Source of the DNA: Xanthobacteraceae bacterium
GTDB lineage: Bacteria > Pseudomonadota > Alphaproteobacteria > Rhizobiales > Xanthobacteraceae
DNA length: 64,000 nucleotides
Direction of reading: 5' to 3'
NCBI GenBank assembly: GCA_028290465.1
Contig: JAQGJU010000086.1
Coordinates: forward strand, 1 to 64,000
The position numbers and the translations under genes are program-made. Under the pieces are notes generated by a model that had not been told where the DNA came from, did not search any database, and saw only the letters and a program-made list of their open reading frames with translations. Numbering within the stretch: position 1 is the first letter of the stretch; each line of letters begins with the position of its first letter. Below, one piece after another: positions 2 to 16,515 of this stretch.

Positions 2-1372
2 GTTCCGTTGTTTCAGGAACAGGCCATGCGGCTCGCGATCGATGCGGCGAAATTCACGCCTCCGGAAGCAGATCGGTTGCGTCGCGCCATGGCAACGTTC
101 AAACGCTCGGGGACGATTCAATTTTTCGAAAAGAAATTTATCGATGGCATGAGCAACCGGGGTTACGACCGCGCCTTCGCGGTTCGTTGCTTCGATCAGA
201 TCAAAGGCTTCGGCGATTACGGCTTTCCGGAGAGTCACGCCGCGAGCTTTGCGTTGCTGGTTTATGACTCGGCCTGGCTGAAGTGCCATTACCCGGATGT
301 GTTCGCGGCGGCGCTGCTTAACGCACAACCGATGGGTTTCTATGCGTCGGCACAGATCATCCGCGACGTGCGCGAGCACGGTGTCGAAGTGCGGCCCGTC
401 GATCTCCATCACTCCGAATGGGACAACACGCTGGAGCCGGGACCGCACGCGGGTGCGCGCGTGCATAGCCTGCACCAAGAGATGGCGGGTGTCATCAAGA
501 CGACGCATGCGGTTCGTCTCGGCATGCGCGAAATCAAAGGCATGAAGGAGGAAGACGCGAAGCTGATCGTCGCAAAGCGGCGCGACGGCTACGACTCGAT
601 CCGCGATGTCTGGCTGCGCACCGGCCTTGATCCAAGCGTTCTAGAGCGCCTCGCCGATGCCGATGCGTTCGGCTCGCTCGGCCTCACCCGGCGTGAGGCG
701 CTATGGGCCGTCAAGGCGCTCGGACGCGTCGGCGACCAGGACGACGATCTGCCGTTGTTTCAAAATGGCGCCGCGACGCCGCTACTTTCTTTCTTGCAAG
801 AAGAATCGACTGCGAACCATCCCATCGCCATTCACGCGCAGAAGGAAGCCGAAGTGCTTCTCCCGCCGATGCCGATCGGCGAGGAAGTCGTGAACGACTA
901 TCGCTTCCTGCGGCTGTCATTGCGCGCGCATCCGGCGCAGTTTCTACGCGGCGATCTTGCCGCCCGGCGCATCGCCACCAATGACACATTGCGCGCCAGC
1001 AAATCCGGCACGCGCGTGTCCGTCTCCGGTCTCGTCACCTGCCGGCAGCGGCCGGGCTCGGCTAAAGGCGTCGTGTTCCTGACCATCGAGGACGAGACGT
1101 CCGTCGCCAATATCATCGTCTGGCCGGCCATGATGGAGCGCTTCCGTCCGGTGGTGCTGGGCGCGCGCTACATCGCGGTCACCGGCCGCATGCAGCAGGA
1201 GGCCGGCGTGATCCATGTGGTGGCCGAACGGCTGGAGGATCTGACTTTTCTGCTGACCCGGCTGGCGGACGGATCGGCGGCCGGGAATCTCACCGAGATG
1301 CCCGAACTCGCCGCCGATCTCGACGTCCATGCACGCGGCACCGCCCACGCGCCGACCCGGCGCGGGCGGTAG
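2..1372 (+). CDS. dnaE2: Error-prone DNA polymerase DnaE2 (ImuC), C-terminal part, 5' truncated by window edge
   Basis: This is the 3' part of a DnaE2/ImuC-type DNA polymerase III alpha paralogue, which carries out translesion synthesis with ImuA/ImuB after SOS induction. The reading frame is open to the first base of the window, and the first residues read VPLFQEQAM, a conserved DnaE-family segment, so the true start lies upstream. After the polymerase thumb/finger region come helix-hairpin-helix-like sequence and, near the C-terminus, an OB-fold-like stretch (GTRVSVSGLVTCRQ to about 75 residues on) typical of DnaE2. About 456 of an expected 1,050-1,150 residues are present. imuA/imuB normally lie upstream, outside the window. 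The first copy of a composite palindromic repeat starts 40 bases after the stop codon. Confidence 0.93.
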   Translation, partial: VPLFQEQAMRLAIDAAKFTPPEADRLRRAMATFKRSGTIQFFEKKFIDGMSNRGYDRAFAVRCFDQIKGFGDYGFPESHAASFALLVYDSAWLKCHYPDVFAAALLNAQPMGFYASAQIIRDVREHGVEVRPVDLHHSEWDNTLEPGPHAGARVHSLHQEMAGVIKTTHAVRLGMREIKGMKEEDAKLIVAKRRDGYDSIRDVWLRTGLDPSVLERLADADAFGSLGLTRREALWAVKALGRVGDQDDDLPLFQNGAATPLLSFLQEESTANHPIAIHAQKEAEVLLPPMPIGEEVVNDYRFLRLSLRAHPAQFLRGDLAARRIATNDTLRASKSGTRVSVSGLVTCRQRPGSAKGVVFLTIEDETSVANIIVWPAMMERFRPVVLGARYIAVTGRMQQEAGVIHVVAERLEDLTFLLTRLADGSAAGNLTEMPELAADLDVHARGTAHAPTRRGR

Positions 1373-4654: not shown

Positions 4655-5508
4655 GTCTCGGCCACGACGCGGTTGCGCAACACGCCGATCTCCGGCACTT
4701 CGATCTCGACCACGTCGCCCGGCACCAGCCAGCGCGGCGGATCGAAACGCGCCCCGGCGCCGGTCGGCGTGCCGCTGACAATCATGTCGCCGGGCTTGAG
4801 CGTCGTGAACGTCGAAATGTAGGCGAGCAGATCCGCGAACGGAAAGATCAGATTCGCGGTGGTGTCGTCCTGGCGCAACTCGCCATTGACCTTGGTGGTC
4901 AGATGCAGCGGGCGCGCGAAATCGATCGCGTCGGCCGTCACCATCCACGGGCCGATACTGCCGGACGCGTCGAAATTCTTGCCCTGCGTGACGTTGAACT
5001 TGCCGTGGCGCAGCCAGTCGCGCACGCTGCCTTCGTTGCACAGCGTCAGGCCGGCGATGTGCGACAGCGCGTTCTCCTTGGCGATGTGGCGGCCGGCCTT
5101 GCCGATCACCAGCACGATCTCGCCTTCGTAATCGAGCAGGGCCGACACTTTCGGCCGCACGATCGGCTGCTCATGCGCGACCACCGAACCCGGCGTGCGG
5201 AAGAACAGGCTCGGATATTTCGGCTGGTCGGTGTTGTCCTTGTACTCGGCATTGCGGTCGGCATAGTTGACGCCGACGCACAGAATTTTCTCGCCGCCCA
5301 GCACCGGCACCAGCAATTCGGCTTCGCTCAGCGCAAAATCCGGCCGCACGCCTGTGGCGCTCTGAATGGCCTCGCCGAGCGCGCCGCCCCGCAGCACGTC
5401 GAGCAGCGTCGGAAACCGGGCGAGCCGCGGCCGCAGATCGACCAGTCCGTCGCCCATAATGGCGCCGAAACTCTGCCGGCCGCGGATATTGTAGCTCGCA
5501 AGCTTCAT
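4651..5508 (-). CDS. Fumarylacetoacetate hydrolase (FAH) family protein, likely HpaG-type isomerase/decarboxylase
   Basis: 285 residues of the FAH fold. The active-site metal motif DYEGEIVLVIGK supplies Glu128 and Glu130. The third ligand position, usually Asp in a NDVSARD motif, reads CNEGSVRD here, so Glu159 would replace Asp. The segments ILCVGVNYADRNAEY and GSIGPWMV are typical of the 2-hydroxyhepta-2,4-diene-1,7-dioate isomerase/5-oxopent-3-ene-tricarboxylate decarboxylase branch. In a homoprotocatechuate pathway this is the step after HpaF. It follows the DapA-family gene by 7 bases and overlaps the regulator gene by 4, so it lies in one operon. Other FAH-family activities (acylpyruvate hydrolysis) cannot be excluded. 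Confidence 0.85.
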   Translation of the reverse strand: MKLASYNIRGRQSFGAIMGDGLVDLRPRLARFPTLLDVLRGGALGEAIQSATGVRPDFALSEAELLVPVLGGEKILCVGVNYADRNAEYKDNTDQPKYPSLFFRTPGSVVAHEQPIVRPKVSALLDYEGEIVLVIGKAGRHIAKENALSHIAGLTLCNEGSVRDWLRHGKFNVTQGKNFDASGSIGPWMVTADAIDFARPLHLTTKVNGELRQDDTTANLIFPFADLLAYISTFTTLKPGDMIVSGTPTGAGARFDPPRWLVPGDVVEIEVPEIGVLRNRVVAET

Positions 5509-5515
5509 AGCGTCC

Positions 5516-6412
5516 TCACATCAGCCCGGCGCGGGCCAGCACGCCATCGAGGCGCTTTTCCAGTTCCGGCGTCGCCGGAACCATCGGCAACCGATGCTCA
5601 TTGGCCGGAATGATACCGAGCTTCTTGGCCATGTATTTCATCGGAATCGGGTTGGTGTCGAAGAACACCGCCTTGTTGATCTCATGCAGCTTATGATGCA
5701 ACGCCTGCGCGGCCGCAAGATCGCCGCGCCACACCGCCTCGCATAGTTCGGCCAGCGGCTTCGGGCGCAGATTGCCGACCGCGTTCATCAGCCCGCAGGC
5801 GCCGATCGCCATCATCGGGAACGACAGATCCTCCAGGCCGACGAAAATCTTGAAATCGCGACCGACCGCCGCCAGGCAATCGGTGACGAATTCGAGATCG
5901 GTCGCGGCGTGCTTCATGCCGACGAAGCTAGGCGACTTGTCTTTGAGTTCCTTGACGGTGTCGACCGTGACATTGACGGCGGCGCGTCCCGGAATGTGGT
6001 AGATCATCCAGGGCACGTCGTTGTTCCTGGTGACTTCGAGATAATACTGGATGATGCCGCGCTGCGGCGGCCGCGTGTAATACGGCGTCACGATCAGCAG
6101 CGCGTCGGCGCCGGCCTTGACGGCGTGATCGGTGAGTTCTTTCGTCTCGGCCAGCGACTGCGATCCGCTCGCCACCACGACCGGCACGCGACCCTTGACC
6201 TGTTCGATCGCCAGCGTCACCAGCTGGTTGCGTTCCGCCACCGTCAGGCAGGCCGGCTCGGCCGTGGTGCCGTTCACCAGAATGCCGTGCGAACCTTGCG
6301 CGATCTGCATCTCGATCAGCCGTGCGTAGGTTTCTTCGTCGATGGCGCCGTTGCGGAACGGGGTGACGAGCGGCGGAATCGAGCCCTTCAAACGGTCGAG
6401 CGGCAACGGCAT
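5516..6412 (-). CDS. DapA/DHDPS-family pyruvate lyase or aldolase
   Basis: 298 residues, a complete class I (beta/alpha)8 lyase of the dihydrodipicolinate synthase family. Seen: PPLVTPF near the start, GTTAE (48-52), YHIPGR with Tyr138, and GMKHAATD with the Schiff-base Lys167. Such enzymes make or break a C-C bond next to pyruvate. Because it heads an operon with HpaR and FAH proteins and faces hpaF-hpaD, I infer that it does the last aldol cleavage of the pathway (pyruvate plus succinic semialdehyde), the job usually done by the unrelated metal-dependent HpaI. A true lysine-biosynthesis dapA is less likely here. Confidence 0.85.
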   Translation of the reverse strand: MPLPLDRLKGSIPPLVTPFRNGAIDEETYARLIEMQIAQGSHGILVNGTTAEPACLTVAERNQLVTLAIEQVKGRVPVVVASGSQSLAETKELTDHAVKAGADALLIVTPYYTRPPQRGIIQYYLEVTRNNDVPWMIYHIPGRAAVNVTVDTVKELKDKSPSFVGMKHAATDLEFVTDCLAAVGRDFKIFVGLEDLSFPMMAIGACGLMNAVGNLRPKPLAELCEAVWRGDLAAAQALHHKLHEINKAVFFDTNPIPMKYMAKKLGIIPANEHRLPMVPATPELEKRLDGVLARAGLM

Positions 6413-6545
6413 GGGATTTAGCTCCGGCAGGAAATGGCAAGGTTGACGGCGGGCCGCAGGCGATGATTAACATGTTAAGATTCGCCACAGCGACCGTCAA
6501 TTGCGCCTATGATGATCGCAGCGAGACTTGAGGGGGAAACACATT
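6413..6545. promoter_or_regulatory. Divergent promoter region of the homoprotocatechuate-type cluster
   Basis: These 133 bases separate the start of the DapA-family gene (minus) from hpaF (plus) and must hold promoters for both. A perfect 12-base palindrome, TTAACATGTTAA, lies at 6467-6478 near the middle, the size and symmetry expected of a MarR/HpaR operator. GAGGGGG before hpaF (about 6532-6538) is the hpaF ribosome site. No -35/-10 pair can be called with confidence. Confidence 0.6.
6467..6478. promoter_or_regulatory. Candidate HpaR operator palindrome TTAACATGTTAA
   Basis: A perfect 12-base inverted repeat between the two divergent arms of the homoprotocatechuate-type cluster. MarR-family dimers bind such AT-rich palindromes. 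The HpaR-like gene is the third gene of the left arm. Assignment is by position and symmetry only. Confidence 0.5.
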
Positions 6546-6932
6546 ATGCCGCACGTCATCGCGGAGTATTCGGCCAATCTGGAAGACCGTCTCGATATCG
6601 GCGCGCTGATCGCCGACCTGCATCAGGTGGTGGCGGCATCGGGCGTGGCCGATCTTGCCGCGATCCGGACCCGCGCGGCGCGGCGCGAACACTTCCGGGT
6701 CGGCGACGGCGCGCCGGCCAACGGCTTCGTGCACATCACCATGCGGCTGCGGGTCGGCCGCAGCCAGGAGATCCTGAATGCGCTCGGCCAGTCGCTGCTC
6801 GACGCCGCCGACCGGCGATTGCAGGACGTCCATGCGACACATCCGGTCGCCCTCACGGTCGAAATGCACGAGATCGATCAACTGACCTTCCGCCGCAATA
6901 GCCTGCGCGAACGCACCGACAGCGCCGCCTAG
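6546..6932 (+). CDS. hpaF: 5-carboxymethyl-2-hydroxymuconate delta-isomerase
   Basis: 128 residues of the CHMI/4-oxalocrotonate tautomerase superfamily. The mature protein begins with the catalytic Pro (MPHVIAEYSANL), so the start must be this ATG and not the one 18 bases upstream; GAGGGGG precedes it at good spacing. The enzyme isomerises 5-carboxymethyl-2-hydroxymuconate in homoprotocatechuate breakdown. It is followed after 10 bases by hpaD, its pathway partner, and diverges from the FAH/DapA/HpaR arm. The dehydrogenase that should precede it (HpaE) and the hydratase (HpaH) are not in the window. Confidence 0.88.
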   Translation: MPHVIAEYSANLEDRLDIGALIADLHQVVAASGVADLAAIRTRAARREHFRVGDGAPANGFVHITMRLRVGRSQEILNALGQSLLDAADRRLQDVHATHPVALTVEMHEIDQLTFRRNSLRERTDSAA

Positions 6933-6942
6933 GGACAACCCC

Positions 6943-7926
6943 ATGCCGGTCCGCCCTCCCAATCACGCGCCGCCGTTCAATATCGTACGCGCCAGCCATG
7001 CCGAACTCGGCGTGCGCGACCTTGGCGCTTCGCGCGCATTCTATGTCGACTGCCTCGGCTTTCTGGCCAGCACCGAGACCTCCGACGCGCTGCATCTGCG
7101 CGCCGTCGAGGAGCGCAACCACCATTCGCTGGTACTGACTAAAGCGACCGAGCCGACGGTGCGGGCGCTGGCCTTTAAAGTCGCGAGCGACGAAGACCTC
7201 GACAAGGCCGAACACTGGTTCAAGCGCCGGAACTATCCGGTGTCGTTTCCCGACATCCCGCATCAGGGCCGCACGCTACGCACCGCGGACCCGTTCGGCA
7301 TGCCGCTCGACTTCTATTTCAAGATGGATCAGAGCGAGCGCATGTTGCAGAAATACGCCGCCTACAAGGGCGCACGGATTCAGCGCATCGATCATCTGAA
7401 CTGCTTCACGCCGGACGTGCAGGCCAGCTACGACTTCTACGGCGATCTCGGCTTCCGGCTGACCGAGTATACGGAGACCGAGGGCGCCGACCCGAAACTG
7501 TGGGCGGTGTGGATGCATCGCAAGGGCAATGTCCACGACCTCGCCTTCACCAATGGCGCCGGTCCGCGCCTGCACCATGTCGGCGTCTGGACGCCGAGCG
7601 CGTCCGACATCATCCATATCTGCGACGTGATGGCGACCTGCGGCTACCTGCCCAACATGGAGCGCGGGCCCGGACGCCACGGCATCTCCAACGCGTTCTT
7701 CCTGTATGTTCGCGACCCGGACGGCCACCGCATCGAACTGTTCACCTCGGATTATCTGACGGTCGATCCGGATCTCGAGCCGATCCGCTGGACCCTGACC
7801 GATCCGCAGCGCCAGACGCTGTGGGGCCAACCGGCGCCGAAGTCCTGGTTCGAAGAGGGCTCGACTTTTGCCGGCGTGCCGGTGCGCGCGCCGGCGCTGG
7901 CCGCGCAGCCGATCGTGGCGAGGTAA
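6943..7926 (+). CDS. hpaD: 3,4-dihydroxyphenylacetate (homoprotocatechuate) 2,3-dioxygenase
   Basis: 327 residues, two tandem vicinal-oxygen-chelate modules as in type I extradiol dioxygenases of the Brevibacterium/Arthrobacter HPCD kind. Iron ligands are visible as His151 (IQRIDHLNCF), His212 (RLHHVGVW) and Glu265 (GHRIELFTSDY). The second-sphere residues His198 and Tyr255 fall at the same spacing from His212 and Glu265 as His200, His214, Tyr257 and Glu267 do in the B. fuscum enzyme. It opens the ring of homoprotocatechuate between C2 and C3. It lies 10 bases after hpaF with AGGGA as its ribosome site. Metal (Fe or Mn) cannot be told from sequence. Confidence 0.9.
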   Translation: MPVRPPNHAPPFNIVRASHAELGVRDLGASRAFYVDCLGFLASTETSDALHLRAVEERNHHSLVLTKATEPTVRALAFKVASDEDLDKAEHWFKRRNYPVSFPDIPHQGRTLRTADPFGMPLDFYFKMDQSERMLQKYAAYKGARIQRIDHLNCFTPDVQASYDFYGDLGFRLTEYTETEGADPKLWAVWMHRKGNVHDLAFTNGAGPRLHHVGVWTPSASDIIHICDVMATCGYLPNMERGPGRHGISNAFFLYVRDPDGHRIELFTSDYLTVDPDLEPIRWTLTDPQRQTLWGQPAPKSWFEEGSTFAGVPVRAPALAAQPIVAR

Positions 7927-7933
7927 TCTTCTT

Positions 7934-8042
7934 CACCCGCCCCCTTGCGGGGAGGGTCGGCCGGCGAAGCGCAGCGAAGCCGGACGGGGTGGGGGTTAAT
8001 TCTAAAACCCTCGTCACACCCCCACCCCGCAAGGGGGAGGGT
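7934..8042. repeat. Composite palindromic intergenic element, copy 2
   Basis: Left arm CCCCCTTGCGGGGAGGG and right arm CCCCGCAAGGGGGAGGG flank a short centre (GGGGTGGGGGTT...CACACCCCCACCCC) with inverted symmetry. It fills the gap between the convergent hpaD and amine oxidase genes and could act as a bidirectional transcription stop. Its arms are a variant of the CTCTCCCC type seen in the other copies. Confidence 0.75.
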
Positions 8043-8056
8043 AAAGAAAGTGCTCT

Positions 8057-9289
8057 TTACTTTCGCGCCTTGATCACCTGCTCGGCCGCCGCGATCCCCG
8101 TGAGGTACGCGCCATGCGCCGTCGAGAAATCATGCCGCGAGCAGGCTTCGCCGGCAAAGAACAAGCGGCCGTCGACCGGCGCCGCCAGCACGGCGCGACT
8201 CTCGGCCTTGCCGGGCAGTGCGGACGAATAGGAGCCGCGCGCGAAAGGATCGGTGCCCCACGCATGAAGCCCGACCGGCTTCACCCGGCGGGCGAAATCG
8301 CTGCCCAGCAGGCCGGTGAGTTCACTTAAAGCGAATTCGACAAACGCCGCCTCGCCGCCCGCCTCGAGTTCGTGCGCAAAGCTGCCGCCGAAATAGACTT
8401 CGATCAGCGGCCGGCCGAACGGCCGCATGTGATAGGTCGCGGTCTCGCGGCGATCGAGATGGCCGAACAGGCGGCTGTCGGCGTCGAACTCCTCGGCGCC
8501 GTCCAGCGACAGAAACAGCTTGTCGGCGAGGCCGAGCGGCAAGCCGAGCGCAGCGTCTGTCTTGTCCAGCAGCTTGGGTGTGAACAGCACTCTTTCCTCG
8601 GCCAGTACCGTGCTCGGCAGCGTGACGATGACGGATGCGGCGCTGATCGTGCCTTCGGATGTTTCAACACTCACCCGCCGGCCGCTGTGGTCGATCCGCC
8701 GCACCGGACAGTTGAGCGCGACCCGCACTTCGGCCGCATGCGCGGCGATCACTGTACCATAGCCCGCCGCGACCCGATAATTCACGCCGCTGTCCTCGTA
8801 GCGCGCCAGATCGCGGACCGAAACGCAGTCGATATCCGCGCCGGTCACATAACTGCCGACTGCGCCGATCAATCCGTTCCATCGGTTGTTTGGGTCGAGA
8901 CAGGCCGTGGCCGCGCGGTCCGGCTCAGCGTCAGCAAGTTCATCGACCCGCTGATAGAAGTCGTTCATCGCGGCCCGGAACGCCGCCTGCTCGTCTGGCG
9001 AAAATCCGATCGATATCGCGGGCCGTGTCCAGGGCGGTGGCGTCCGGTCGATCCCGCGGCCTTGCGCCTGCGCGATCCCGCACCACGGATTGCGGTCCGC
9101 CGAATGCAGCCAACCGCAGCCGAGATCGACCGGATGGCCGCCGACCTCCGCCGTCCAGGCCCGACCGCCGAGTCGGTCCCGCGCCTCCACGATCAGGCAA
9201 TCCACGCCAGCATCGGTGAGCCGCCGTGCCGCCGCGATGCCGGCGGCGCCGCCGCCAACAATCACCACTTCCGTTTCACTCACAATCAT
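8057..9289 (-). CDS. FAD-dependent amine oxidase (flavin monoamine oxidase family)
   Basis: 410 residues. N-terminal FAD-binding Rossmann motif VVIVGGGAAGIAAARRL, then the family EARDRLGGRAWT segment, and a C-terminal FAD cap motif FFAGEACSRHDFSTAHGAYL, in the order normal for monoamine/polyamine oxidases. It should oxidise a primary or secondary amine to an imine with release of H2O2. No signal peptide is seen, so it is cytoplasmic. It is divergent from the 2-hydroxyacid dehydrogenase at 9365 with 75 bases between, and convergent with hpaD. A link to aromatic amine use (producing phenylacetaldehydes upstream of homoprotocatechuate) is a guess from the neighbours. Confidence 0.85.
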   Translation of the reverse strand: MIVSETEVVIVGGGAAGIAAARRLTDAGVDCLIVEARDRLGGRAWTAEVGGHPVDLGCGWLHSADRNPWCGIAQAQGRGIDRTPPPWTRPAISIGFSPDEQAAFRAAMNDFYQRVDELADAEPDRAATACLDPNNRWNGLIGAVGSYVTGADIDCVSVRDLARYEDSGVNYRVAAGYGTVIAAHAAEVRVALNCPVRRIDHSGRRVSVETSEGTISAASVIVTLPSTVLAEERVLFTPKLLDKTDAALGLPLGLADKLFLSLDGAEEFDADSRLFGHLDRRETATYHMRPFGRPLIEVYFGGSFAHELEAGGEAAFVEFALSELTGLLGSDFARRVKPVGLHAWGTDPFARGSYSSALPGKAESRAVLAAPVDGRLFFAGEACSRHDFSTAHGAYLTGIAAAEQVIKARK

Positions 9290-9364
9290 GCGCTATTTAG
9301 ACTCGCACTGACGACGGTTTTCCGGCACCTGATATCGACATTTCCATCGCGAGATACAACCGGC

Positions 9365-10285
9365 ATGACCTCCCTGTTCATCGACTGCAACGACCAGCTC
9401 GCGCCCGTATGGACCAAAGTGCATCAGCCTGACGATCCGGCCATTAAGGTCAACCGAACGCCGTTCGCGCGCGAGGATCTGCCGAAGCTGCTCGACGGCG
9501 TCACGATCTGCCTTGACGATCATTCCTACATGCCAACCGAGCAGATCGCGCAGTGCAGGAGCCTCAAGCACATCGTGTTCCTGGGCACCGGCGCCGCCAG
9601 CTATATGAGCATCGCCGAATTGAAGGATCTCGGCGTCGAGGTCCACACCATCAAGGGCTATGGCGACACCGCCGTGGCCGAGCACACCGTCGCCCTGATG
9701 TTCGCCTGCGCGCGCGGTGTCGCCCGCATGGACCACGAGGTGCGCGGCGGCATCTGGAAACCGCGCGAGGGCATGCAACTCCAGGGCAAGACGCTTGGTG
9801 TGATCGGGCTCGGCGGCATCGGCGGCGAGGTCGCCCGCATCGCCAGGGGAATCGGCATGGAGGTGATCGGCTGGAACCGGACACAACGGCCGGAGAGCGG
9901 CGTGACGCAGGTCGAACTCAATGCGCTGCTGGCGCGCGCCGACGTGGTATCGCTCAACCTGACCCTTGGCGACGAGACGCGCGGCTTCCTCGATGCCGCG
10001 CGCATTGCCAAGATGAAACCCGGCGTCCTCTTGGTGAACACGGCGCGCGGCGCGCTGGTCGATGAGGCCGCGCTGCTCGCGGCGCTGGAAAGCCGGCATA
10101 TCGGTCATGCCGGATTGGACGTGTTTCACGCCGAACCGCTCAAGGCCGAAAATCCGTTGACCCGGCTGGAAAATGTCACCTTGACCTCGCATTGCGCGTT
10201 CCGCACCCCCGAGGCCTCGATGACGCTGCTGCGCCGCGCCATCGATATCGTGCGGCGGATCGAGGGAATGCAGCCCTCAGCCTGA
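9365..10285 (+). CDS. D-2-hydroxyacid dehydrogenase family protein
   Basis: 306 residues with the full catalytic set of NAD(P)-dependent D-2-hydroxyacid dehydrogenases: GLGGIGG (148-154), Arg228 in NTARGALVDE, Glu257 in HAEPL, and His276 in TSHCAFRTPEA. It interconverts a 2-oxoacid and a D-2-hydroxyacid; substrate unknown. The ATG is chosen because homology starts at MTSLFIDCNDQL; the long in-frame extension to 8372 runs antisense through the amine oxidase gene and is an artefact of high GC. It precedes the ROK-like gene by 55 bases on the same strand. Confidence 0.87.
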   Translation: MTSLFIDCNDQLAPVWTKVHQPDDPAIKVNRTPFAREDLPKLLDGVTICLDDHSYMPTEQIAQCRSLKHIVFLGTGAASYMSIAELKDLGVEVHTIKGYGDTAVAEHTVALMFACARGVARMDHEVRGGIWKPREGMQLQGKTLGVIGLGGIGGEVARIARGIGMEVIGWNRTQRPESGVTQVELNALLARADVVSLNLTLGDETRGFLDAARIAKMKPGVLLVNTARGALVDEAALLAALESRHIGHAGLDVFHAEPLKAENPLTRLENVTLTSHCAFRTPEASMTLLRRAIDIVRRIEGMQPSA

Positions 10286-10340
10286 GGAAACCTTTGGCCG
10301 AGTTCCCCGTTGTCGCAGTCAGGACACAAGGGGGCATCTC

Positions 10341-11468
10341 ATGGCCGACCAAAGCACATTGCCTGCCATCGCGACTCATGGCGCAGTCCGCCTGCCCAGC
10401 GTCGAGGTCGACAACTACAATCTCGAACTCAAGGACGACGAGGGTTTTCTCGGCGACCGCGCCAGCAAGGGTGCGTTCCGGGAGATTCTGGAGAACTGGC
10501 GCAGGCCGCTGCGCAAGGCCGGCAAGGATCCATTCGGCGACGAAGCGAGCGCCGATATCAGCAAGAAAAAGCTCGATGCCGTGCTGTCCAGCGGCGAGTC
10601 CGAAGCGGCCGGCGTCCTGCATGGCGCGATCGAGGATTTCGCGCAGGAACTCGCGCTGATCATTCGCCGGTTTCTGAAGACCAAAGGCTGGCGCGATACG
10701 CAGCGCATCGTGATCGGTGGCGGATTTCGCGGCAGCCGGGTCGGAGAAACCGCCATCGGCCGGGCATCGGTCATTTTGACCGCCGACGGCATCGACCTTG
10801 AACTGGTGCCGGTGCGCCATGATCCGGACGAGGCCGGCCTGGTCGGCGCCGTGCACCTCGCGCCGTCCTGGCTGTTCCAGGCGCAGGATGCGATTCTCGC
10901 CGTCGATATCGGCGGCACCAACATCCGGGCCGGCGTCGTGCAGCTCAACCTTAAGAAGGCGACGGACCTGTCGAAAGCGGCGGTCGCGAAATACGAGTTG
11001 TGGCGTCACGCCGACGAAAAAGGCATTAAGCGCGAGCACGCGGTCGAGGGCCTGTCCGACATGCTGTCCGGCCTGATCAAATGGGCCAAGCGCGAAGACA
11101 TCAAATTGGCGCCGTTCATCGGCATCGGCTGTCCGGGCCGCATCGAGAATGACGGTTCGATCGATCGCGGCGCGCAGAACCTGCCCGGCAATTGGGAGAG
11201 CAGCAAGTTCAACTTGCCGGCGGAACTGCACGAAGCCATTCCGACCATCGGCGAGCATGACACCGCGATTGTGATGCACAATGACGCCGTGGTGCAGGGC
11301 CTGAGCGAAGCGCCGTTCATGCGCGATGTCGAACGCTGGGGGGTTCTGACCATCGGCACCGGCCTGGGCAATGCCCGCTTCACCAACCGCACGACTAAGG
11401 CTGAAGCTAAGGCAGAGGCTAAGGCAGAGGCTAAAGCTGAAGCCAAGGAGTCTGCCAAAAGCGGTTAG
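10341..11468 (+). CDS. ROK-family sugar-kinase-like protein with swapped (circularly permuted) halves and an AEAK tail
   Basis: 375 residues. Residues 72-174 look like the C-terminal half of a normal ROK kinase: a helical stretch, then RIVIGGGFRGSRVGE (122-136) and DEAGLVGAVHLAP (163-175), which in canonical ROK proteins closes the chain. Only then comes the part that normally starts a ROK protein: LAVDIGGTNIRAG (186-198, phosphate-1), GIGCPGRI (261-268), HNDAVVQG with the presumed catalytic Asp315, and TIGTGLGN (337-344). The Zn-binding HxxCxxCxxxC motif is not seen. The C-terminus is a lysine/alanine/glutamate tail with AEAK four times (354-369). A sugar kinase or regulator role is possible; substrate unknown. 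It follows a 2-hydroxyacid dehydrogenase. Confidence 0.82.
   Translation: MADQSTLPAIATHGAVRLPSVEVDNYNLELKDDEGFLGDRASKGAFREILENWRRPLRKAGKDPFGDEASADISKKKLDAVLSSGESEAAGVLHGAIEDFAQELALIIRRFLKTKGWRDTQRIVIGGGFRGSRVGETAIGRASVILTADGIDLELVPVRHDPDEAGLVGAVHLAPSWLFQAQDAILAVDIGGTNIRAGVVQLNLKKATDLSKAAVAKYELWRHADEKGIKREHAVEGLSDMLSGLIKWAKREDIKLAPFIGIGCPGRIENDGSIDRGAQNLPGNWESSKFNLPAELHEAIPTIGEHDTAIVMHNDAVVQGLSEAPFMRDVERWGVLTIGTGLGNARFTNRTTKAEAKAEAKAEAKAEAKESAKSG
11400..11447 (+). repeat. 12-base tandem repeat encoding AEAK x4
   Basis: Four imperfect copies of a 12-base unit (gctgaagctaag, gcagaggctaag and variants) in the 3' end of the ROK-like gene, each coding Ala-Glu-Ala-Lys. The copies differ mostly at third positions. 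It makes a charged, probably helical tail and could vary in copy number by slippage. Confidence 0.85.
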
Positions 11469-11494
11469 ACTGCTCGCGGCATTCTCGTTCATCC

Positions 11495-11566
11495 GTAGGG
11501 TGGGTTGAGCGAAGCGAAACCCACCATCTGACTGCTATGGGTTTCGCTTCGCTCAACCCATCCTAC
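11495..11566. repeat. Long inverted repeat, 29-base arms
   Basis: Arms at 11495-11523 and 11538-11566 are complementary at 28 of 29 positions, with a 14-base loop. Each arm contains GGGTTGAGCGAAGCGAAACC. It lies 26 bases after the ROK-like gene and before the molybdenum hydroxylase operon, and can fold as a strong RNA hairpin. No T-tract follows. Repeats of the GGGTT...GCGAAGCG...AACCC kind are widespread in bacterial intergenic regions. Confidence 0.85.
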
Positions 11567-11695
11567 GAGTCACACGAGACTGTATGATCTCCGCGACGAT
11601 GTCGCAGCCGCTCGACTAGCCATTGACCTCGCAGCGTTCTCGTTCAGAATAAGAACAAGCAGAACGAGATAAAGACAAACGTCGCGGGGGGATGT

Positions 11696-12544
11696 GTGAA
11701 GCCGGCACCTTTTGGCTACGCCAAGGCGAGGTCACTCGATGAAGCGATCGGACTGCTCGGACAGCAACCGGATGGCGTCAAGCTGCTGGCCGGCGGGCAG
11801 AGCCTGATCGCCACGCTCAATATGCGGCTCAGCGAGCCGCGATTGCTGGTCGACATCAACGGTCTCCATGAACTTTCCGGCATAAGGCTCGACAACGATC
11901 ACCTCGTGATCGGCGCGATGACGCGGCAGGTCGAGATCGAACGCTCGGCCGACATCGCCCGCCATGCGCCGCTGCTGGCCAAAGCTCTCCCCCACATTGC
12001 CCATCCGGCGATCCGCAATCGGGGCACCATCGGCGGCTCGATCGCGTTCGCGGATCCGGCCGCCGAACTGCCGGCCTGCCTGACGGCGCTCAGCGCCGAG
12101 ATCGAGATCGCCGGCCCTTCCGGCAAGCGCACGGTGCGGGCCGATGACTTCTTTAAAGGTTTGTTCGAGACCGCGCTCGGGCCGCAGGACGTGCTGACCG
12201 CGATCCGCATTCCGACAGCCTTGGCCGATCATCGCTGTGGCTTTGACGAATTCGCACGGCGGCTCGGCGACTACGCCATTGTGGGTCTCGCGGCCACCGC
12301 GCGCGCCAACGGTGCCGGACTGAAGGACGTGCGGCTCGCTTATTTCGGTGTCGGAGCGACACCGGTGCGGGCGAGCCGCGCTGAAGTTGCGCTGGCGGCT
12401 GGCGATCTCGATAAAGCGGTGGCTTCGCTCTCTGGCGATATCGATCCGCAGGACGACGTGCAGGAGAACGCTGCCGTGAAACAACACTTGGCCGGTGTGC
12501 TGCTGCGGCGCGTCGCGAAGCAAATGACGGAAGCGCGATCATGA
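11696..12544 (+). CDS. Molybdenum hydroxylase, FAD-binding medium subunit (CoxM/XdhB-like)
   Basis: 282 residues. FAD-binding motifs AGGQSLIATLNMRL (32-45) and RNRGTIGGSIAFADPAAE are those of the medium subunit of xanthine-oxidase-family enzymes. It passes electrons from the [2Fe-2S] subunit to an acceptor. The start is GTG, preceded by a G-rich ribosome site (GGGGGGA); the start codon follows 230 bases of non-coding sequence containing an inverted repeat. Its stop overlaps the next gene's start by four bases (ATGA), the first of two such overlaps in this three-gene operon, so the subunits are co-translated in the order M-S-L. Confidence 0.9.
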   Translation: MKPAPFGYAKARSLDEAIGLLGQQPDGVKLLAGGQSLIATLNMRLSEPRLLVDINGLHELSGIRLDNDHLVIGAMTRQVEIERSADIARHAPLLAKALPHIAHPAIRNRGTIGGSIAFADPAAELPACLTALSAEIEIAGPSGKRTVRADDFFKGLFETALGPQDVLTAIRIPTALADHRCGFDEFARRLGDYAIVGLAATARANGAGLKDVRLAYFGVGATPVRASRAEVALAAGDLDKAVASLSGDIDPQDDVQENAAVKQHLAGVLLRRVAKQMTEARS

Positions 12545-13029
12545 GCAGTCTGCAATGCGACATCACGCTGACCGTCAACGGCGAAACCATTCGCGAGACC
12601 GTCGAAGCCCGCAAGACGCTGGTCGACTTCCTGCGCGACGATTTGGGCCTCACCGGTTCGCATGTCGGCTGCGAGCATGGCTTTTGCGGTGCCTGCACGG
12701 TACGACTCAATGGCGTCATTGTGCGCGGCTGTCTGACGCTGGCGGTGCAATGCGACGGCGCCAAGGTCGAAACCATCGAGGGCCTGTCGGACACCGGCGA
12801 ATGCGCGGATCTGCAAACCGCGTTCGAGACCCGCAACGCGCTGCAATGCGGCTTCTGCACGCCCGGCATGCTGCTGACCGCGCAGGAGCTGCTCGCCTCC
12901 GACAGGGTGCCGAGCCGCGAGGCGATCCGCGAACATCTGTCCGGCAACTACTGCCGCTGCACCGGCTATCACGCCATCGTCGATGCGGTCGAAGCGGTCG
13001 CGAAAGCACGCGCGGGAAGCGGCACATGA
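12541..13029 (+). CDS. Molybdenum hydroxylase, [2Fe-2S] small subunit (CoxS-like)
   Basis: 162 residues with eight cluster cysteines in the expected order: Cys44, Cys49, Cys52 and Cys64 (plant-ferredoxin-type cluster, CEHGFCGACTVRLNG) and Cys103, Cys106, Cys138 and Cys140 (CGFC...CRC, the alpha-helical cluster next to the molybdopterin). It carries electrons from the molybdenum centre to the flavin subunit. It overlaps both neighbours by four bases. Function follows the large subunit. Confidence 0.92.
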   Translation: MSSLQCDITLTVNGETIRETVEARKTLVDFLRDDLGLTGSHVGCEHGFCGACTVRLNGVIVRGCLTLAVQCDGAKVETIEGLSDTGECADLQTAFETRNALQCGFCTPGMLLTAQELLASDRVPSREAIREHLSGNYCRCTGYHAIVDAVEAVAKARAGSGT

Positions 13030-15425
13030 AAATCACCGACGACGTGCCGTCCACCCTCACCGCGCTCGACCGGCCGAACTCCTATATCGGCCGCTCGGTG
13101 CCGCGGCCGAATCTCGCGCGGCTGACGCAAGGCCGCGGCCACTACGTCACCGACGTCACCCTGCCCCGCATGGCGCATGTCGCCTATGTGCGCTCGCCGC
13201 ACGCCCATGCCCGCATCGTGCGGATCGACACCACCGCCGCCAAGAAAATGCCCGGCGTCATCGCGGCCGTCACCGGACCCGAACTCGCCAAGGTGATCAC
13301 GCCTTGGGTTGGCGTGCTGACGCATCTCAAGGGTCTGAAATCCGCGCCACAAAGCGCCATCGCCATCGACCGCGCCTGCTGGCAGGGCGAGGCGGTCTGT
13401 GCGGTGGTCGCGCGCACCCGCGCCGAAGCCGAGGACGCCTGCGCGCTGGTGCAGGTTGATTACGAAGAGCTGCCGACCGTCACCGATCCGGAGACCGCGC
13501 TCGACGCCGCGACGCACGTCATTCATGCGGATCTCGGTGACAATCTGTGTTTCGAGCGCAGCCTCGATGTCGGCACCGTCGACGCCGCCTTCGCCGGTTC
13601 AGATGCGGTCGTTGAAACCACTTTTGTTTTCGGCCGCCATACCGGCGTCACCAACGAACCGCGCGCCATCGTGGCCGACTGGAACCCTGGCGAGCAGCGG
13701 CTGACGGTCTATCACGGCACCCAGGCGCCGCACATGATGCAGAACCTGTTCGCCAAGCATCTCGGCCTCGAAGAAAGCCAGGTGCGGGTGCTGACCAAGG
13801 ATGTCGGCGGCTCGTTTGGCATCAAGGTGCACACCTACGCCGACGAGATGGCCGTGGTGGCGCTGTCCAAACTGCTGAAGCGGCCGGTGAAGTTCGTCGC
13901 CGACCGCATCGAAAGCTTCGTCACCGACATTCACGCCCGCGATCATCGCGTCAAGGCCAAGATCGGCGTGATGAACGACGGCACCATCACGGCGTTCGAG
14001 ATCGACGACCTCACCGGCATCGGGCCCTATTCGGTCTATCCGCGCACTTCGGGCATCGAGGCCAACCAGATCGTCAACCTGACCGGCGGGCCGTATGCGT
14101 GCCCGAACTACCGGGCGCACACCCGTGTCGTGTTCCAGAATAAAAATGTCATGTGCCAGTATCGCGCGGTCGGTCATCCGATCGCCTGCGCGGTCACCGA
14201 GGGCCTCGTCGAACTCGCGGCCGCCAAGATCGGCATGGACCCGCTCGATATCCGCCGCAAGAATCTGATCGCTGACAATGCCTATCCGACCGGTTCGGCG
14301 TCGGGCCTGAAATTCGAGGCGCTGTCGCACCACGCGTCGCTCGATAAACTGGTCAAGATGATGGACCACGACGCGCTGCGCGCCGAACAGACGGCGCTGC
14401 GCCACAAGGGCATCTATCGCGGCATCGGCTTTGCGTCATTCATCGAGGTCACCAATCCGTCGGCGGCATTCTACGGCGTCGGCGGCGCCAAGATCTCCGC
14501 GCAGGACGGCTGCACCATCAAGCTCGACGCGCAGGGCGCCATCGTGTGCCACACCGGCGTTACCGAACAGGGCCAGGGCGCCGAAGCCGTGATCGCGCAG
14601 GTCGCGGCCTCTGCGTTCGGCGTCGCCATCGAACGCGTACGCGTCATCACCGGCGATACCGACAACACGCCCTATGGAGGTGGAACGTGGGCTTCCCGCG
14701 CGGCCGGCATCGGCGGCGAAGCCGCGTGGCAGGCCGGCAAGGCTCTGCGCCAGAACGTGCTGGCGGTGGCCGGCAGCATTCTGCAAGCTAAACCCGAAAC
14801 GCTCGACATCCGCGACAGCCAAGTGGTCGACGCCGGCACCGGCAAGGAACGCATCGGCCTCGATGAGGTGGCGCGCATCGCCTATTTCCGGCCGGACACG
14901 CTGCCGCCCGGCTTCCAGGCCGAACTGATGGCGACGCGGCATTATGTGCCGCGCGCCTTCCCGTTCTCCTTCACCAACGGCATCCAGGCCTCATATCTGG
15001 AGGTCGATACCGACAGCGGCTTCGTCAAGCTGCTGAAGCATTGGTGCGTGGAGGATTGCGGCACCGTCATCAACCCGCAACTGGTCGACGAACAGGTACG
15101 CGGCGGCGTGGTGCAGGGCATCGGCGCGGCGCTGTATGAGCAATGCGTCTATGACGAGCGCGGCCAGATGCTGAACGGCAACATGGCGGATTATCTGGTG
15201 CCGATGGCGTCCGAAATGCCCGATATCCAGTGCGGCCATGTGGTGTCGCCCACCGCCGATTCGGAACTCGGCGCCAAGGGCGCCGGCGAAGCCGGCACCG
15301 CCGGGGCGCCGGCCTGCGTGATGAACGCGATCAATGACGCGCTGCGCCCGCTCGGGGCGGCGCCGCTGACCGACATGCCTTTCACCCCTGGAAAGATCCT
15401 GCGGGCGCTCGGACGCGTGTCCTGA
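13026..15425 (+). CDS. Molybdenum hydroxylase, molybdopterin-binding large subunit (xanthine dehydrogenase family)
   Basis: 799 residues. Molybdopterin-binding motifs DVGGSFGIK (259-267) and GAKGAGEAGTAG with the catalytic Glu755 are intact. The active-site loop reads MCQYRAVGHP (376-385): neither the AYXCSFR of form I CO dehydrogenase nor the AYRGAGR of form II, and the selenium/copper-binding Cys is Ala381. It is therefore not an energy-conserving CO dehydrogenase but an aromatic/heterocycle, aldehyde or similar hydroxylase of unknown substrate. The start ATG overlaps the small-subunit stop; the longer in-frame extension back to 12555 is antisense-like noise. No CoxD/E/F/G-type maturation genes follow; the next gene is a cyclase-family hydrolase. 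Confidence 0.9.
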   Translation: MKITDDVPSTLTALDRPNSYIGRSVPRPNLARLTQGRGHYVTDVTLPRMAHVAYVRSPHAHARIVRIDTTAAKKMPGVIAAVTGPELAKVITPWVGVLTHLKGLKSAPQSAIAIDRACWQGEAVCAVVARTRAEAEDACALVQVDYEELPTVTDPETALDAATHVIHADLGDNLCFERSLDVGTVDAAFAGSDAVVETTFVFGRHTGVTNEPRAIVADWNPGEQRLTVYHGTQAPHMMQNLFAKHLGLEESQVRVLTKDVGGSFGIKVHTYADEMAVVALSKLLKRPVKFVADRIESFVTDIHARDHRVKAKIGVMNDGTITAFEIDDLTGIGPYSVYPRTSGIEANQIVNLTGGPYACPNYRAHTRVVFQNKNVMCQYRAVGHPIACAVTEGLVELAAAKIGMDPLDIRRKNLIADNAYPTGSASGLKFEALSHHASLDKLVKMMDHDALRAEQTALRHKGIYRGIGFASFIEVTNPSAAFYGVGGAKISAQDGCTIKLDAQGAIVCHTGVTEQGQGAEAVIAQVAASAFGVAIERVRVITGDTDNTPYGGGTWASRAAGIGGEAAWQAGKALRQNVLAVAGSILQAKPETLDIRDSQVVDAGTGKERIGLDEVARIAYFRPDTLPPGFQAELMATRHYVPRAFPFSFTNGIQASYLEVDTDSGFVKLLKHWCVEDCGTVINPQLVDEQVRGGVVQGIGAALYEQCVYDERGQMLNGNMADYLVPMASEMPDIQCGHVVSPTADSELGAKGAGEAGTAGAPACVMNAINDALRPLGAAPLTDMPFTPGKILRALGRVS

Positions 15426-15561
15426 CATAGCTGGTATCTGGGCGGCTATTTTGCGCCGCGACCCGGTGGACGAATGTGCCCGGGCACGCCAGTATTGCGC
15501 CGAACGGCCAAAACGCCGAAACAGTCGACAAGACCAATACAAGACCAGCGAGGAAGTGCCG

Positions 15562-16515
15562 ATGAATATCAAAGTGGGCCGGGCCGCTATCGAAGAAGCC
15601 TCCAAGAAGCTGTCGAACTGGGGCCGCTGGGGCAAGGATGACCATATCGGCACCTTGAACCACATCACCCAGGAAGACATCGTCAAGGCCTCCTCGCTGA
15701 TCAAGACCGGCAAGGTGTTCGCGATGGGCATTCCGCTGGACCGCGAGGGCCCGCAGAACGGCCTGTTCGGCGGCCGGTTCAATCCGATCCACCAGATGCT
15801 GGCGACCGGCACCGACGCGGTCGCCGGCCAGCAGGACTGGAACAAGATCCGCTATGCGGACGACACGCTCAATCTGTGCGTGCAAGGCGCGACGCATTGG
15901 GATGCGCTCGGCCACATCTTCTTTGACGACAAGGCCTACAACAACCATGACGCCAAGCTGATCGACTCGCGCGGCCTCAGCGTGCTCGGCATCGAGCATT
16001 CCAAGAGCAAGATGGTCGGGCGCGGCGTGCTGCTCGACATCGCGCGCTTCCGCGGCGTCGAGTGGCTGAAAGACGGCGAAGGCATCTCCAACGACGAGCT
16101 CGACAAATGCGCCAAGGCGCAAAACGTCTCGATCGGCCGCGCCGACTTCGTCCTCGTCCGCACCGGCCAGATGGAACGCTGCCTGAAGGAAGGCGTGTGG
16201 GGCGGCTATGCGGGCGGCGACGCGCCGGGCGTGATGTTCGAGAATTGCTACTGGTGCCAGGACAAACAGATCGCCGCGATCTGCTCCGACACCTGGGGCG
16301 TCGAGATGCGGCCCAATGAGACCACCGAGGCCAACCAGCCGTGGCATTGGGTGGTGATCCCGGCGATGGGCCTGTGCATGGGTGAGATCTTCTACATGAA
16401 GGAACTCGCCGAAGATTGCGCGGAAGATGGCGTCTACGAATTCTTCTTCTGCGGTCCGCCGCTGATCATCACCGGCGGCACCGGCTCGCCGATCAATCCG
16501 CAGGCGATTAAGTAG
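15562..16515 (+). CDS. Cyclase-family (kynurenine-formamidase-like) metal hydrolase
   Basis: 317 residues of the cyclase/putative metal-dependent hydrolase family (PF04199). The metal motif, HxGTHxDxPxH in most members, reads QGATHWDALGHIFFD here: Gln108, His112, Asp114, His118. The His-to-Gln change at the first ligand and the following 'DDKAYNNHD' belong to the longer (about 320-residue) branch of the family. These enzymes open cyclic or formyl amides such as isatin or N-formylkynurenine. The ATG follows GAGGAAG. It lies 136 bases after the molybdenum hydroxylase, whose product could be its substrate (for example a hydroxylated N-heterocycle); that is inference. Confidence 0.85.
   Translation: MNIKVGRAAIEEASKKLSNWGRWGKDDHIGTLNHITQEDIVKASSLIKTGKVFAMGIPLDREGPQNGLFGGRFNPIHQMLATGTDAVAGQQDWNKIRYADDTLNLCVQGATHWDALGHIFFDDKAYNNHDAKLIDSRGLSVLGIEHSKSKMVGRGVLLDIARFRGVEWLKDGEGISNDELDKCAKAQNVSIGRADFVLVRTGQMERCLKEGVWGGYAGGDAPGVMFENCYWCQDKQIAAICSDTWGVEMRPNETTEANQPWHWVVIPAMGLCMGEIFYMKELAEDCAEDGVYEFFFCGPPLIITGGTGSPINPQAIK

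Follow-up and report, generated by a model that had tools for sequence, protein, structure and literature searches.

The closest described relatives of the protein analyzed here are the ROK glucokinases and N-acetylmannosamine kinases (PF00480; S. griseus 3vgk, N-acetylmannosamine kinase 2yhw, and C. hutchinsonii 3r8e), which have both halves of their fold in common with it and whose DIGGT, CPG, ND, GTGxG, and GGG motifs also occur in its family. Many ROK proteins are repressors, and most members, not all, carry the Zn-binding CxCGxxGCxE motif. The polyphosphate/ATP glucomannokinase, also without the ROK Cys motif, adopts the ROK fold (1woq; Z 10.7 to the C-terminal half of the permuted protein), and the glucomannokinase family NF045942 gave the natural chain its lowest NCBIfam E-value (1.3e-4; 21.8 bits, cut-off 250). 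Unlike the permuted protein, 1woq is linear in order; the rows listed for the N-terminal half do not contain it, which excludes nothing. The family described below differs from canonical ROK proteins by its swapped halves, termini placed after GTGxGN, the lack of the Zn motif, and an altered region 1 to 70.

Metabolic enzymes are seldom circularly permuted in nature. According to PMC11046441, the GH13/GH70 glucansucrases underwent the same kind of event, with the same fold and catalytic motifs rotated; their fold and reaction are unrelated to those of the permuted ROK protein. The earlier note on this DNA held that a permuted ROK member was not known to be a described family, and among the open-access papers listed in the searches, no report of a permuted ROK, sugar-kinase, or actin-like-fold protein was found; the strings "permut," "rearrange," and "Rhizobi" do not occur in PMC12696579, which deals with the glucose kinase superfamily and dates from 2025.

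Motif order and profile comparisons

The window, a stretch of 64,000 nucleotides from a Xanthobacteraceae bacterium, contains at 10341..11468 (+ strand) an ATG-initiated coding sequence, supported by the ORF list, its translation, a conserved family, and purifying selection. The encoded 375-aa protein almost certainly has the ROK sugar-kinase fold in circularly permuted form. Its motifs run in the order GGGF, DEAGLVGA, DIGGTN, CPG, QNLPGNW, HND, and GTGLGN, that is, with the canonical end first. Residues 20 to 165 (10398..10835, +), delimited by VIA-align and hhalign, represent the C-terminal half of canonical ROK, placed first; the glycine-rich GGGF (residues 126 to 129, 10716..10727, +, read from the translation) lies near the C terminus in canonical ROK, and DEAGLVGA occupies residues 163 to 170. 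A new linker (residues 176 to 184, 10866..10892, +), assigned from the best rotation cut at 176, leads from the old C terminus to the old N terminus, with a short helix at 176 to 180 in the AlphaFold2 model. Residues 183 to 349 (10887..11387, +; Pfam, VIA-align) represent the canonical N-terminal half, placed last, with phosphate-binding motif 1, DIGGTN (residues 189 to 194, 10905..10922, +; translation, conservation), CPG (residues 264 to 266), QNLPGNWE (residues 279 to 286, 11175..11198, +), HND (residues 313 to 315, 11277..11285, +), and phosphate-binding motif 2, GTGLGN (residues 339 to 344, 11355..11372, +), the last three marked by conservation. By the roles of these motifs in ROK kinases, we take QNLPGNW to be a sugar-binding-type motif and D315 to be the expected catalytic base. 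The new C terminus is only a few residues beyond GTGLGN. All motifs quoted in support of a swapped order are found in the translation where they had been placed.

A 12-bp tandem repeat (11395..11448, +; TRF) codes for an Ala/Lys/Glu-rich C-terminal tail, which is variable among homologues and absent from several. Just downstream of the gene, a near-perfect hairpin with a 30-bp stem (11494..11567, no strand assigned; fold z −13.7, MFE −61.1 kcal/mol) has a pattern, GGGTTNAGCGAAGCGNAACCCACC, that occurs once in its own genome, at 11494 to 11567; we regard it as a terminator-like or repeat element, separate from the claim about the protein. On the opposite strand, a 438-aa ORF (10176 to 11492, −) spans the whole gene, and antisense ORFs recur in relatives; they are most likely shadow ORFs of a GC-rich gene. 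PADLOC gave no match.

The permuted order and its conservation are established by sequence comparison. Pfam ROK matches residues 186 to 349 only, corresponding to profile positions 2 to 141 of 294 (31.5 bits, with the cut-off at 22.9), and NCBIfam NanK weakly matches residues 97 to 174 to its last quarter (214 to 286 of 288; E 0.01). The whole PF00480 profile is not matched in linear order: there are two swapped matches, which become linear only after rotation. For profile comparison, 131 distinct family sequences (61 after the hhalign filter) were set against 48 canonical ROK proteins chosen for having the Zn motif. In the natural order, hhalign aligned residues 71 to 175 with ROK 199 to 297 (E 9.9e-6) and residues 186 to 344 with ROK 2 to 135 (E 2.7e-5), the two matches not overlapping, and rotation at 179 yielded a single alignment across ROK 2 to 298 (E 8e-6).

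In a global rotation scan, the best score was 67.1 at cut 176, compared with 28.7 for the natural order, whereas column-shuffled profiles reached at most 9.8 (12 shuffles, 8 rotations each) and reversed profiles at most 10.2 (22 rotations). The maximum is not sharp: cuts 128 to 188 score 56 to 67, and cut 240 still scores 52.5; eight canonical ROK proteins, used as an independent control, scored best unrotated (273.9), with a similarly broad fall-off. Rotation left the local hhalign score nearly unchanged, cut 184 (72.0) being the exception; the reason is the poor match of residues 1 to 70. Gains were also small in single-sequence HMMER searches (whole score from 16.7 to 18.5 and best domain from 7.4 to 13.0 bits), NCBIfam scores moved by about one bit or less, and the similarity of the permuted protein to canonical ROK is low at the sequence level. 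The permuted order scored better than the linear one in the comparison that the earlier note had proposed, and the join falls where canonical N and C termini would meet, as that note had read it.

Predicted structure of the two halves

The fold of the permuted protein is a prediction. The full-length AlphaFold2 model (60 sequences) has a pLDDT of 84.4 and a pTM of 0.81. With VIA-align, its residues 183 to 349 were placed on the first half of solved ROK proteins, including 2yhw (Z 13.2), 3r8e (0..144, Z 10.5), and 3vgk_B (2..141, Z 10.2). The N-terminal half modelled alone (residues 1 to 180; pLDDT 75.9) was placed, through its residues 20 to 165, on 3vgk_B 141..302 (Z 7.1) and 3r8e 144..290 (Z 7.1), and ranks 1 to 29 were all ROK proteins and other sugar kinases. 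A Z of 7.1 is below the VIA-align caution level of 8; with the N-terminal half alone, Foldseek gave no match at an E of ≤0.001 (best ROK, 0.46), and a PDB sequence search with the profile of that half returned only chance-level matches.

On these models, it is the complementary placement of both halves, and not the middling Z of 7.1 alone, that decides the structural case. Eighteen PDB entries are common to both top-50 lists (a few of them paired through different chains), and in 16 of these, one range takes over from the other with an offset of −2 to +4 residues, for instance, 2..141/141..302 in 3vgk_B, 0..144/144..290 in 3r8e, and 405..553/553..708 in 2yhw; in the two that do not meet (3vov and 5f7p), the alignment on the side of residues 183 to 349 extends into the tail past residue 350. 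The full model is confident over segments 21 to 30 (87) and 161 to 180 (89 and 85), and the half by itself is not (55; 43 and 39), which is what packing of these segments on the other half would be expected to produce. Whole-chain Foldseek ranked hexokinases, PPX/GppA, and Hsp70-type proteins high, with TM of about 0.2 to 0.35; this is what a sequential aligner would be expected to return for a permuted two-domain fold and was not taken as family evidence. A two-domain ROK fold whose halves match the same solved ROK proteins is thus supported by prediction only.

Most of what had been proposed for the architecture is borne out: the halves stand in swapped order, by rotated score as well as by complementary placement, and the chain is opened just after GTGxGN, with the new termini lying in the hairpin after that loop. 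The moved segment had been taken to begin at about residue 72. The segment itself holds, through the profile match of 71 to 175, and its start does not, since the structural match begins at about residue 20, so that practically the whole ROK C-terminal half stands in front.

Conservation, distribution, and gene neighborhood

The family set comprises 137 distinct members including that of the window, collected as long matches to the window protein (E of ≤1e-50, or E of ≤1e-40 and >300 residues) with six more added. Motif order is identical by alignment column in all of them; since they were picked as long matches, the shared order is partly a product of selection and indicates consistency, not an unbiased count. 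A strict regular expression for four motifs in order was met by 127 of the 137, the other ten having variant letters, an earlier chance HND, or incomplete sequence. D189, G191, N194, G126 to G128, CPG, Q279, N280, P282, G283, W285, H313, N314, and D315 are invariant (137/137), G192 is present in 136 of 137, position 193 is occupied by Thr (123 members) or Ser (14 members), and G339, T340, G341, G343, and N344 are present in 136/136. The absence of the Zn motif had been noticed in the single protein, and it extends to the family, in which no member has CxCGxxGC or CxCGxxAC (0/137). No clear instance of the ExGH motif was seen; E29 (128/136) and D32 (130/136) are candidates, with residue pairing unresolved. 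PF00480 matched 60 of 60 members scanned (E of ≤0.01), and no other family matched more than 5. In four comparisons with relatives, pairwise dN was 0.18 to 0.22 and dS was 0.77 to 0.89, giving a dN/dS of about 0.23 to 0.26. The recurrence of the same cut and linker points to one origin of the permutation, an inference made without a tree. Comparisons made for other purposes brought up no fused ROK-ROK intermediate.

The permuted order proved to be widespread in genomes and plasmids once homologues were sought. A protein scan of the genome collection gave at least 597 pattern matches, and 579 of the 597 listed encode relatives; by title, the best 80 of these 579 are mostly Bradyrhizobium, Rhodoplanes, and other Xanthobacteraceae. 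Among plasmid records, 204 of 206 matches cover at least 80% of the query, and by the first word of the name, the records are Rhizobium (111), Sinorhizobium (79), Shinella (9), Bradyrhizobium (3), and one each of Methylobacterium, Phyllobacterium, Roseateles, and Ensifer. Labels on the listed plasmid records are mostly "ROK family protein," with once "glucokinase," twice "hypothetical protein," or none. Phage records gave no match to the permuted protein. Long matches to the permuted chain were found in 23 of 61 close-relative genomes, 16 of 385 genomes of the class, and 22 of 398 genomes of the phylum, five of these 22 lying outside the class. These counts exclude matches covering only residues ~175 to 350 (1 of 24 among close relatives, 1 of 17 in the class, and 25 of 47 in the phylum): the first (G003) is, by sequence reading, a chance match inside a molybdenum-hydroxylase-like ORF, the second (G256) is a canonical ROK by motif order and Zn motif, and of the 25 from the phylum, eight inspected were canonical ROK and the rest were excluded on coverage. 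The family is common in rhizobia, including model rhizobia (for instance, on S. meliloti pSymB), sparse in other Alphaproteobacteria, and present in few other Pseudomonadota.

Two further loci were noted in passing. A record titled "Frankia sp. RB7" (L068, JAUEPE010000043.1) carries a 64%-identical copy among Bradyrhizobium ones, which may reflect a wrong label or a mixed assembly. At L241 (G616:C151:167216-167341), a 97-aa ORF ~3.6 kb upstream of the gene repeats its first ~40 codons, with 66% identity to the start of the window protein over 38 residues, and looks like a partial duplication of the permuted gene.

No operon partner is conserved across genera (131 loci and 30 more diverse loci). 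A gene that reads as ribosomal-protein-L21-like lies near 74 of the 131 loci and is not among the recurrent clusters of the 30 diverse loci. In two Rhizobium records, a gene annotated as haloacid dehalogenase or trehalose-phosphatase (otsB) adjoins the permuted gene, and a relative of the otsB-annotated gene does so in L256 and L260; a NAGGN-system peptidase lies beside the gene in two S. meliloti records, and a ferritin-like protein lies beside it on one Bradyrhizobium plasmid. The otsB, NAGGN-peptidase, and ferritin-like neighbors are suggestive of a stress flavor. In the window itself, the neighbors at 5500 to 16500 (dihydrodipicolinate-synthase-type, glyoxalase, amine oxidase, 2-hydroxyacid dehydrogenase, molybdenum hydroxylase subunit, and cyclase) look like unrelated catabolic genes; among the 30 loci, molybdenum-hydroxylase-like ORFs are close by only in the window, L002, and L005, with a related ORF 5.5 kb off in L261.

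Several locus tags were considered for the homologues and set aside. SM_b20472 is named an ornithine carbamoyltransferase in PMC7268258, which removes SMb20472 as the S. meliloti tag; SMb20484 to SMb20487 and blr0420/0421 were guesses and were dropped. A ROK gene of E. meliloti from a gentamicin GWAS is on pSymA and is called a regulator in that report (PMC6200981), so it was not taken as the permuted gene.

Upstream sites and possible function

The stress-flavored neighbors led us to look for an EcfG box. According to PMC3892343, this box is GGAAC-N16-CGTT in R. etli and EcfG is confined to Alphaproteobacteria; among the ECF targets tabulated for S. meliloti in PMC6180224, one of RpoE2/RpoE6 has GAAAC. 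Strict GGAAC-N16-18-CGTT was present in 18 of 136 distinct 330-base upstream regions; the corresponding counts were 1 within the gene and 3 on the reverse strand, with 0.5 for shuffled sequence. Inspection of the upstream regions revealed that the second −35 base varies by lineage. The widened motif G[ACG]AAC-N16-17-[CG]GTT, chosen after the data had been seen and admitting variants at one −35 and one −10 base, had a site within 330 bases before codon 13 in 104 of the 136 regions. In 99 of them, the site starts 40 to 150 bases before codon 13 (GCAAC in 59, GAAAC in 21, and GGAAC in 19); 37 have no site in this narrow stretch. Among the 330-base controls, those taken from within the gene had 1 and 0 of 136, the reverse strand had 6, and Markov-resampled sequence averaged 3.4. 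Scrambled motifs (195) gave a median of 0 and a 95th percentile of 2; a single one at 52 reflects the non-independence of related sequences.

The candidate promoter of the window gene, GAAAC-N16-CGTT and not GGAAC (10287..10311, +), rests on like sites at like positions in relatives; the window holds one other match to the pattern where 0.42 is expected, so the site in the window alone means little. Five tested members outside the class (L235 to L239) have no EcfG-like site, in keeping with a restriction of EcfG to Alphaproteobacteria. The anti-sigma factor of EcfG, NepR, is encoded in the genome of the window and, by a hand cross-count, in 21 of 23 carriers versus 22 of 38 non-carriers. GGAAC-N16-CGTT sites are present in the nepR stretch of that genome and of G001; in the nepR stretch of G024, from the same family, even the loose pattern has no match, a point against a simple EcfG explanation in that genome. 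We infer from the promoters, with some reserve, that the gene rather more probably than otherwise belongs to the EcfG general stress regulon in many Alphaproteobacteria.

Could the unusual order be an illusion? Pfam detects only the ROK N-terminal half and residues 1 to 70 align poorly by sequence, so the protein might be such a half behind an unrelated N-terminal domain, without any permutation. This reading is very improbable and already contradicted: residues 71 to 175 match the ROK C-terminal part by profile, and residues 20 to 165 match ROK by predicted structure, with ROK proteins and sugar kinases filling ranks 1 to 29. Because residues 20 to 165 fit the second half of solved ROK proteins, residues 72 to 175 are not an unrelated domain, the outcome that would have overturned the original proposal. 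A frameshift, misassembly, or pseudogene has even less standing. Nothing was found in favor of such an artefact, apart from the fact that the region does hold long opposite-strand shadow ORFs, and it is refuted by the many independent genomes that carry the gene, by the coverage of at least 80% in nearly all matching plasmid records, and by the dN/dS values.

A harder question is whether the permuted fold has lost its sugar-kinase function and serves as a ligand-binding regulator or scaffold. That many ROK proteins are repressors, that the Zn motif is missing and ExGH is not evident, and that no sugar transport or catabolism operon recurs across genera would all suit such a role. It remains unlikely, as no DNA-binding domain was found by Pfam (no helix-turn-helix among matches at an E of ≤1, the ROK-like part starting at about residue 20 after a low-confidence beginning) and a non-catalytic protein would have no need of invariant or nearly invariant D189, N314, D315, GTGxGN, and QNLPGNW. 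A permuted ROK protein with a working kinase site is the reading we consider probable, its activity being inferred without an assay: the conserved DIGGTN, HND, and GTGLGN argue, with good though incomplete assurance, for a working ATP-dependent kinase, and QNLPGNW suggests a hexose substrate, which has not been shown. That the gene stands in for a missing glucokinase was ruled out, since the ordinary glucokinase PF02685 is present in its own genome and in 18 of the 23 carriers among the 61 genomes (hand count); the permuted gene is not simply the missing glucokinase.

For this putative kinase, we propose that the old N and C termini were joined via the short linker and that the chain was opened anew in the hairpin directly following the GTGxGN loop. 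Strand 343 to 349, the last of the chain, and the first strands (from ~20) would jointly rebuild the second domain, and the two-domain cleft with DIGGTN, QNLPGNW, HND, GTGLGN, and GGG would re-form. The F36, G38, D39, and R40 segment presumably substitutes for the zinc loop. The protein would then bind ATP-Mg and phosphorylate a hexose-like sugar, with D315 as the inferred base.

A broader reading, which we offer tentatively and do not yet favor, is that a single ancestral permutation created a new, widespread class of sugar kinase in Pseudomonadota, recruited to the alphaproteobacterial general stress response, with a substrate of its own acquired through chain opening next to the ATP loop and Zn-loop loss, perhaps in osmolyte metabolism; the last suggestion follows from the position of the gene beside otsB in some rhizobia and beside the NAGGN-system peptidase in S. 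meliloti. In model rhizobia, the permuted protein has been concealed by annotations such as "ROK family protein" and "glucokinase." It lets one see, in a case provided by nature, how a domain-closing kinase copes with relocated termini, and it is likely a new stress-response enzyme in nitrogen-fixing bacteria.
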